Of a DNA stretch of 64,000 nt, positions 55,267 through 57,255 are shown in pieces. The notes under the pieces are model-generated. The model was not told the origin of the DNA, ran no database searches, and saw only the letters and a list, made by a program, of their open reading frames with translations. The stretch lies in assembly GCF_030817415.1 (NCBI RefSeq), contig NZ_JAUSZI010000002.1:10825501-10889500 (forward strand), given 5' to 3'. Position 1 is the stretch's first letter. Each line of letters starts with the position of its first letter. Source of the stretch: Streptomyces umbrinus. GTDB taxonomy: Bacteria; Actinomycetota; Actinomycetes; Streptomycetales; Streptomycetaceae. Both the position numbers and the translations under genes were made by a program.

Positions 55267-57255
55267 TCAGTCGGCGATGTCGACCCCGTATCCGCGGGCG
55301 AGGGCATCCAGGCCGTGGTCGTAGCCCTGGCCGACGGTGCGCAGGCGCCAGAGGGGACCTCTGCGGTAGATCTCCGCAAGGAGCATGGTGCGTTCGGTCG
55401 TGGCGGCGTCCAGGGTCGCCCGGGCGACGGGTGCTCCGCTGTTGCCGGCGGCCGCACCGATCTGGATCGCGCCGACCGTCCCGAAGGTGGTGACACCGTC
55501 GATGGCCGCGGCGACGACGACCTTGCGGGTCGCGGGCGGCAGGGATGCCAGATCGACGGCGATGGTCTGTTCGGCCGGACCTCCGGTGAGGAGCCGTACG
55601 GTGCCGGCGGGGCTCTCCGGGGCGCCGTAGAAGATGAACTCCGCGTCGGAGGTGACCTGTTCGTCCTCGTCGAGGAGGAACGCGACGACGTCGATCTCGC
55701 AGTCGGCCTGCGGAGCCCAGCTGGCCGTGATGTACCAGTCGGGCGCGGGTCTGCCGTGCGGCACGGGCAGGTCGGTGACGCCGCCCCTCGGCAACACCCG
55801 TGGTTCTTGTGCCCGGACGGCCGCCGTGCCCTGTTCGGTGGCCGACGGCGCGGTGAGCCAAGGCCCCTCGTGCACGGGGAGTTCAAGGGTGGTGATGCGG
55901 CTCATGCGGCGGTCCTGCTCGCCGCGGGCGAGAAGGACGACGTCGGTGACGCTGGCCGACAGGTTGATGGCCGCGGAACCGCCCAGTTCGACGACGCGGG
56001 TACGGGCCGCCGCGGCGTCGGCGTGGACACCACCGAGTACCAGTACCCGGTGGCCTGACAGCGGCTTGTCCAAAGAGCCGACCGAGTCGCCGGGTTGGCG
56101 CGGCACGGGGACGGCTGTGCGGGGGGAGGGCGACGGCAGGACGGGCACTTCCGGGACCGGCGCCGTGGTGGATTCGAGCTCGGTGACCTGGACTTGAGCC
56201 GGAGCCGGAGCCGGAGCCGGAGCCGGAGCCGGAGCCGGAGCCGGAGCCGGAGCCGGAGCCGGAGCCGGAGCCGGAGCCGGAGCCGTCGCCGGTACCGCCG
56301 GCGCGATCGTCACGGCGGGCGCGGCCGTCGCCTCGTGCGCCGTTCCGGTCCGTACGTCGGCGAGCAGCCGCAGGAAGGTGTGCTCGTCGATGACCGGCAC
56401 ACGTTCGGCGAGTGCGCGTCGGGCCTTCGCCGAATCGGACGTCGGCTCGTTGGTGACCAGCACGCTGGTGTGCCGGCTCACGGAGGCCATCATGTTCAGC
56501 CCGGCGGCAACCGCACGCCCGACCAGCTCCGCCCGGGCGTGCGCGGTGTCCCCGGTGATCGCGACCTTCATCCCCTGCTGGAGCGGCCCGCCGGGAGCCA
56601 GCCGCCCCGGGTTGCGGTAGGCGCAGGGGGTCTTGGGCGGCTGAGGCGTGAACTGGGACTCCGCACGGGGCGGGCAGGCCACGAGTGGCAAGGGCAGATC
56701 GAGCTGAGCTGCCTGGCGCAGCGACGCCCGCAGGATCCCGGCCAGCACCCGGGTGTCGTCCAGCGCATCGTGTGCGTGCTGCTGGGGAACGCCGTAGTGA
56801 GCGGCGAGGGTGCCGAGTTTCATGTCTTCCGTGGGCGGATCCACCTGGCGGTTCAGGGCCAGCGTGCACAGGCGTTGCGACACCGGCAGCCACATTCGCG
56901 CGCGGGCGAACTCGTGGGCCAGGAAGTCGTAGTCGAACTGCGCGTTGTGGGCGACCAGAACCCGGTCCTGGAGCATCGCCCCGATCCGGCCGGCGACCTG
57001 GTCGAAGGTCGGCGCGCCCCGCAGCCGCTCGGCGGTCAGCCCATGCACATGCACCGGCCCCGGATCGCACCCCGGATTGAGCAGTGTCGAGAACTCCGCG
57101 GTCTGTTCGCCGTCCGGACCGATCGTCACTACGGCGACGGACAGCACCCGATCCCGCCGGGCCACGAGCCCTGAGGTTTCCACGTCGACCAACGCCCAGT
57201 CGCGGGCGTAGTCGTCCGTAGCAGGCACGTCGAAAGAGGCGGAGGCGAGACTCAT
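55267..57255 (-). CDS. DEDDh exonuclease - BRCT - (Ala-Pro)n - BRCT-like - TerD fusion protein
   Basis: A 662-aa protein. Residues 18-190 are a DnaQ-type 3'-5' exonuclease: exo I ALVDVETSG (D24, E26), exo II VLVAHNAQFDYDFL and exo III QHAHDALDDTRVLAG, all catalytic residues present. Residues about 229-300 resemble a BRCT domain (MKVAITGDTAHARAELVGRAVAAGLNMMASVSRHTSVLVTNE). Residues about 315-355 are an Ala-Pro repeat. Residues about 390-470 look like a second, weaker BRCT (LSGHRVLVLGGVHADAAAARTRVVELGGSAAINLSASVTDVVLLARG). Residues about 505-662 are a TerD domain (DWYITASWAPQADCEIDVVAFLLDEDEQVTSDAEFIFYG). TerD proteins bind calcium and belong to tellurite/stress systems. A nuclease acting in a stress or defence response is my inference. 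Confidence 0.88.
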   Translation of the reverse strand: MSLASASFDVPATDDYARDWALVDVETSGLVARRDRVLSVAVVTIGPDGEQTAEFSTLLNPGCDPGPVHVHGLTAERLRGAPTFDQVAGRIGAMLQDRVLVAHNAQFDYDFLAHEFARARMWLPVSQRLCTLALNRQVDPPTEDMKLGTLAAHYGVPQQHAHDALDDTRVLAGILRASLRQAAQLDLPLPLVACPPRAESQFTPQPPKTPCAYRNPGRLAPGGPLQQGMKVAITGDTAHARAELVGRAVAAGLNMMASVSRHTSVLVTNEPTSDSAKARRALAERVPVIDEHTFLRLLADVRTGTAHEATAAPAVTIAPAVPATAPAPAPAPAPAPAPAPAPAPAPAPAPAPAQVQVTELESTTAPVPEVPVLPSPSPRTAVPVPRQPGDSVGSLDKPLSGHRVLVLGGVHADAAAARTRVVELGGSAAINLSASVTDVVLLARGEQDRRMSRITTLELPVHEGPWLTAPSATEQGTAAVRAQEPRVLPRGGVTDLPVPHGRPAPDWYITASWAPQADCEIDVVAFLLDEDEQVTSDAEFIFYGAPESPAGTVRLLTGGPAEQTIAVDLASLPPATRKVVVAAAIDGVTTFGTVGAIQIGAAAGNSGAPVARATLDAATTERTMLLAEIYRRGPLWRLRTVGQGYDHGLDALARGYGVDIAD
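56197..56285 (+). repeat. (AGCCGG)14 hexanucleotide repeat encoding Ala-Pro
   Basis: Fourteen perfect AGCCGG units (56197-56280) plus a partial fifteenth. On the coding (minus) strand it reads GGCTCC-type codons for alternating Ala and Pro. Slippage by one unit would add or remove two residues without breaking the frame. Confidence 0.95.

Follow-up and report, generated by a model that had tools for sequence, protein, structure and literature searches.

The gene at 55267..57255 on the minus strand raises the question of why an exonuclease, BRCT modules and a TerD domain are carried on one polypeptide and what such a protein does for the cell. TerD is a module of bacterial stress systems and what TerD proteins do is poorly understood. 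A conserved single gene that fuses TerD with a nuclease whose active site is intact offers a direct handle on TerD function. The window, which is the whole stretch of 64,000 nucleotides analysed here (G000:C2:10825501-10889500), lies in a genome of 12.4 Mb and contains the whole gene, the open reading frame of which was confirmed. Its product of 662 amino acids is arranged as exonuclease, BRCT domain, linker, BRCT-like domain and TerD. Pfam placed RNase_T at residues 23-174 and TerD at 509-656, both well above their cut-offs, along with a BRCT match at 227-296 slightly below its own. Sequence matches in the PDB were to TerD proteins (3ibz and 2kxt), to PolC and epsilon exonucleases and to a DNA ligase (1l7b). 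The occurrence of exonuclease, BRCT and TerD in one protein, as observed earlier from the sequence, is confirmed. Among the matches listed, the nearest named relatives of the fused gene were from Streptomyces phaeochromogenes (92%) and S. umbrinus (91%).

The DEDDh 3'-5' exonuclease domain (residues 20-195; 56671..57198, minus strand) matched PF00929 with 80.1 bits against a cut-off of 24, and the DEDDh (DnaQ-like) fold was found in it. The sequence-only reading had described its catalytic acids as complete, and the five predicted catalytic residues D24, E26, D108, H162 and D167 are indeed present and invariant in all 121 aligned rows. By loose patterns, motifs I-III were all present in 111 of 119 more distant relatives, with one or two absent in the other 8. 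As both the fold and the active site are intact, 3'-5' exonuclease activity is predicted, and from sequence and model the fused protein is very probably an active nuclease. Residues 13-314 aligned with positions 11-322 of the 331 in the NCBIfam profile NF004719 of PRK06063-type DEDDh exonuclease-BRCT proteins (E 6.9e-116), with a score of 386.8 bits that does not reach the equivalog cut-off of 389; the protein is thus closely related to the family but falls outside it as curated, and it differs from that type by its additional linker, second BRCT-like domain and TerD. The same genome also encodes an unfused exonuclease-BRCT paralogue (C2:8958813-8960009) with 49% identity over residues 11-201.

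BRCT domains typify proteins of DNA repair and replication. The first one (residues 224-309; 56329..56586, minus strand) scored 19.6 bits on PF00533 in the window protein (E 0.0011), under the cut-off of 21.3, and its assignment draws on relatives, on 1l7b and on the model: PF00533 matched this region in 39 of 41 relatives at E <= 0.1 and stood above the Pfam cut-off in 10 of 10 chosen distant relatives, the DNA ligase chain 1l7b matched residues 221-308 (E 2.1e-5), and the model placed elements at E230-233, H241-250, E254-256, E265-267, H276-283 and H291-298. The earlier claim of at least one BRCT domain is supported. The second, divergent domain (residues 400-470; 55846..56058, minus strand) is BRCT-like only, as it had no Pfam match in the window protein and gave a weak model in isolation (pLDDT 62). 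Its elements in the model (E403-407, H411-423, E427-429, E438-441, H451-456, E461-463 and H464-468) and its profile match to the first domain (E 7e-5, probability 63%) point to a BRCT relationship; a Foldseek search with the isolated domain returned no match under E 0.1, and its top eight entries were BRCT-bearing proteins. Between the two lies the Ala-Pro linker that had been read from the sequence (residues 310-394; 56074..56328, minus strand), predicted to be disordered with pLDDT below 50 throughout.

The C-terminal TerD domain (residues 486-660; 55276..55800, minus strand) scored 102.5 bits on PF02342 against a gathering score of 25.3, with the Pfam match beginning only at profile position 25. 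The earlier assignment, which had placed TerD beyond residue 500, is borne out by the predicted structure, in which the TerD fold was found over residues 486-660. Canonical TerD acidic motifs bind Ca2+. In the fused protein these motifs (DxDLDASA and HTGDNxTGEGxGDDE), which are those of the TerD family (PF02342; 3ibz, 2kxt), are largely gone: of 9 acidic positions 3 are kept, and 2 of the 9 in three other fused relatives, whereas the canonical copies of the same genome (L001-L004) keep 8 or 9 of 9, with L001 at 9.

The earlier description of the protein as an orphan is right for the position of the gene, where Ter families of the terB, terC and telA type were absent from the 14 neighbours scanned with Pfam (44569-63370), and wrong for the genome, which holds 19 TerD matches, two of them inside one gene and three within 5 kb of one another elsewhere on the chromosome. 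One of these is a second nuclease-TerD fusion, an Mrr_cat restriction nuclease with a degenerate C-terminal TerD (L015 1-1953; C2 about 7758851-7760803); it resembles the window protein in layout, whereas its nuclease is of another family and its TerD falls outside the exonuclease-TerD clade. Other degenerate TerD domains were seen in L016, joined to CAP domains, and in L010, joined to an AIM24 domain. The long proteins L005 and L017 (open frames of 723 and 693 amino acids) carry an N-terminal TerD, with no further Pfam family at E 0.1 in the parts read (681 and 662 amino acids, to the locus end).

The union of these domains had been presented as unusual, a view that was not supported. Two full-length searches were made, one with the window protein (best 120 of 1113 scored proteins listed) and one from the distant member P0234 (best 120 of 1260, P0234 included). 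RNase_T and TerD were both present in all 120 proteins of each list, and all four modules in 239 of the 240, the exception P0234 lacking the second BRCT-like domain; such searches rank full-length relatives first, so that these counts over-state the fused form. The profiles of the two BRCT modules matched 120 of 120 proteins in the first list and, P0234 aside, 119 of 119 in the second. Named sources in the P0234 search were Sanguibacter, Luteimicrobium, Cellulomonas, Kineococcus, a Kineosporiaceae bacterium, Dactylosporangium, Virgisporangium, Geodermatophilus, Klenkia, Allobranchiibius, Flexivirga, Kitasatospora, Actinomadura and Streptomyces, and further fused loci were found in Rhodococcus (L028) and Nocardia (L031) in the genome collection. 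S. avermitilis is represented in the first list by an ortholog, P0108. The exonuclease-TerD architecture is already in databases under automatic names such as 'TerD family protein', 'DEDDh family exonuclease' and 'DNA polymerase-3 subunit epsilon', behind which a large family is hidden. The literature matches listed, a scope outside which the full texts of Anantharaman, Iyer and Aravind 2012 and of Daigle 2015 fall, included no paper on an exonuclease–BRCT–BRCT–TerD protein. The first of these, a survey of Ter systems, mentions DNA-processing in its title.

Variants of the architecture were also met. By sequence reading the second BRCT-like domain was not seen in P0153, P0186 and P0234; P0148 and P0149 terminate after it and L030 after the first BRCT domain. 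In P0162, P0169 and P0195 the first BRCT domain is shortened or gone and the chain continues into the second and TerD, which may reflect real deletions or assembly errors. In L032 (Rhodococcus zopfii, from 7001) the frame of the fused gene ends 347 residues past the match start, early in the BRCT2-like region, and the match nonetheless runs to query residue 662 in the same assembly. Among the 120 proteins listed by a search for shorter proteins, 15 had RNase_T with TerD and 2 had TerD alone, the remainder being many fragments and others complete unfused proteins. A careful tree covered the TerD domains of 19 chosen fused proteins and, as its whole comparison set, 14 from the window's own genome; all 19 from the fused proteins grouped in a single clade (support 100/98, present in 100% of 200 bootstrap trees). 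In a quickly built tree of the exonuclease-BRCT parts, which leaves out the unfused paralogue of the same genome, the TerD label was scattered, with 9 changes of which at least 4 were forced and with some labels unsure, and eleven unfused Streptomyces and Kitasatospora rows formed a separate clade (SH-aLRT 99). Because the TerD domains form a single clade and the TerD label is scattered, the two trees taken together fit one old fusion followed by repeated loss.

Considering the whole of this evidence, we tentatively place first the explanation that the protein is an auxiliary, non-replicative 3'-5' exonuclease of actinobacteria that would trim DNA 3' ends in repair or stress. Trimming of 3' ends is favoured because the nuclease is very probably active and a proofreading role is less likely, and the non-replicative part of the explanation, taken by itself, is probable. 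In the placement, substrate and partner that we infer for the exonuclease, its fold and intact active site would serve to cut DNA 3' ends, the two BRCT modules, going by what BRCT domains generally do, would anchor the protein to DNA ends or to a partner in repair, and the long linker, if disordered as predicted, would let the C-terminal TerD move freely.

An unlikely alternative is an anti-phage effector whose nuclease would break down invading DNA, with TerD as the sensor of a Ter-type signal. In PMC7824862 and PMC7159879, Ter systems are proposed to resist phage, and a nucleoside-like signal would be sensed by TerD and other components. The fused protein also matched the PADLOC candidate model PDC-S48 (E 8.5e-71) and the Mrr-TerD protein of the same genome matched a PADLOC type IV restriction model (E 1.4e-58). 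The PDC-S48 match, however, runs through the exonuclease and BRCT parts that the model shares with the window protein, the TerD part having no PADLOC match, and the unfused proteins P0213 and P0158 scored slightly better on it (254 and 252.5 against 237 bits). As PDC-S48 does not separate fused from unfused homologues, we rejected it as evidence of defence. Against this alternative it may further be said that the Pfam scan of the 14 neighbours showed no evident defence gene, the kinase among them matching PADLOC kinase models as many kinases do, and, as a soft argument, that related genera fall side by side on the TerD tree, which is not the pattern of a typical mobile defence gene.

It is quite unlikely that the protein proofreads for DnaE1 or the error-prone DnaE2 as a second epsilon-type subunit, with TerD as a stress-linked regulator. 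Replicative epsilon subunits carry a conserved clamp-binding motif behind their exonuclease domain, and none was found among the 121 rows; the internal clamp-like QLDLPL at 184-189 was considered and rejected, as Q occurs in 4 of the 121 rows and R in 115. In mycobacteria, according to PMC5636811, the replicative exonuclease resides in the PHP domain of DnaE1, and the DnaQ-like DEDD exonuclease is dispensable. PMC3919608 describes the metal sites of DnaE1 PHP as highly conserved, some groups excepted. Proofreading is thus less likely, since the mycobacterial DnaE1 PHP proofreads with the DnaQ-like exonuclease dispensable and no clamp motif is conserved. That the protein acts mainly on RNA or oligonucleotides, with BRCT and TerD as scaffolds, is very unlikely: the best sequence and fold matches were DNA polymerase-linked or DinG exonucleases, and BRCT modules belong with DNA repair and replication.

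We compared dN/dS across the parts of the gene to see how each is constrained. Against L020-L022 the values were 0.10-0.11 for the exonuclease, 0.13-0.19 and 0.18-0.29 for the first and second BRCT modules, 0.17-0.19 for TerD and 0.49-0.78 for the linker, which was the highest of all parts in 6 of the 6 pairs with a value. Against L023-L026, TerD gave 0.27-0.50 and the exonuclease 0.09-0.30, and TerD was less constrained than the exonuclease in all 7 pairs (L020-L026). As its values against L020-L022 are similar to those of the first BRCT domain, TerD is constrained about like it and, judged by these ratios, is under purifying selection. That TerD is a passenger contributing little to an ordinary DEDDh-BRCT exonuclease, as the Actinomadura relatives P0148, P0149 and L030 that stop before TerD might suggest, is highly improbable, given dN/dS near that of the first BRCT domain and far under the linker, and the presence of TerD in all 240 listed proteins of the two full-length searches, which favour the fused form.

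Within the preferred explanation, that of an auxiliary DNA 3'-end exonuclease, TerD is probably a calcium-independent binding or docking module, because its acidic motifs are mostly lost and it is under purifying selection. It could well serve as a docking or ligand module for other Ter-family proteins, a reading we hold with some reserve, and would thereby couple the nuclease to the cell's other TerD proteins. PMC7159879 proposes that TerD recognises nucleotide derivatives. The fusion plausibly provides a putative link between DNA-end processing and the Ter system. A bolder and doubtful version holds that an old, actinobacteria-wide DNA 3'-end enzyme is the DNA-side effector of the TerD network, its calcium-blind TerD docking onto Ca2+- or signal-binding TerD proteins and so passing Ter-sensed stress to DNA ends; if true, it would be a direct physical link from Ter to DNA processing.

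The neighbours of the gene include dihydroxyacetone kinase genes, a K+ transporter, a Ser/Thr kinase, an FHA-flavin monooxygenase-like protein, a 129-amino-acid protein without a family, an MFS transporter, an isochorismatase and a TetR regulator, among others. When nine of them were compared by tblastn (E <= 1e-8) with 43 loci, 10 of which had a full-span match to the fused gene, the only match was one of 32% to the MFS transporter in L033. When ORFs were compared across 13 loci and the window, one class of neighbour recurred, response regulators (L021, L022 and L026), under a rough filter that missed the fused gene in L021, L028, L031 and L032 and the window genes 54799-55188 and 59962-60687, and with L020, L027 and L029 cut on one side, where neighbours may have been missed. 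Within these two comparisons, no conserved partner gene was found. DNA-damage boxes with fewer than 3 mismatches were absent from 8 upstream regions of 400 bases, and single 3-mismatch matches occurred solely in L023, L024 and L026. None of 15 phage records had a match spanning 80% of the fused protein; among 2612 matching plasmid records two did, both replicons of 1.7 and 2.7 Mb. The gene at 52750-54687 (plus strand) encodes an FHA domain (25-86) with a flavin monooxygenase-like part (FAD_binding_3, 446-484) and adjoins the Ser/Thr kinase gene at 50540-52507 (plus strand), as if it were a phosphorylation-controlled oxidoreductase. The 129-amino-acid protein encoded at 54799-55188 (plus strand) matched neither a Pfam nor an NCBIfam family at E <= 1, and its gene is convergent with the exonuclease gene, 78 bases from the end of the latter.
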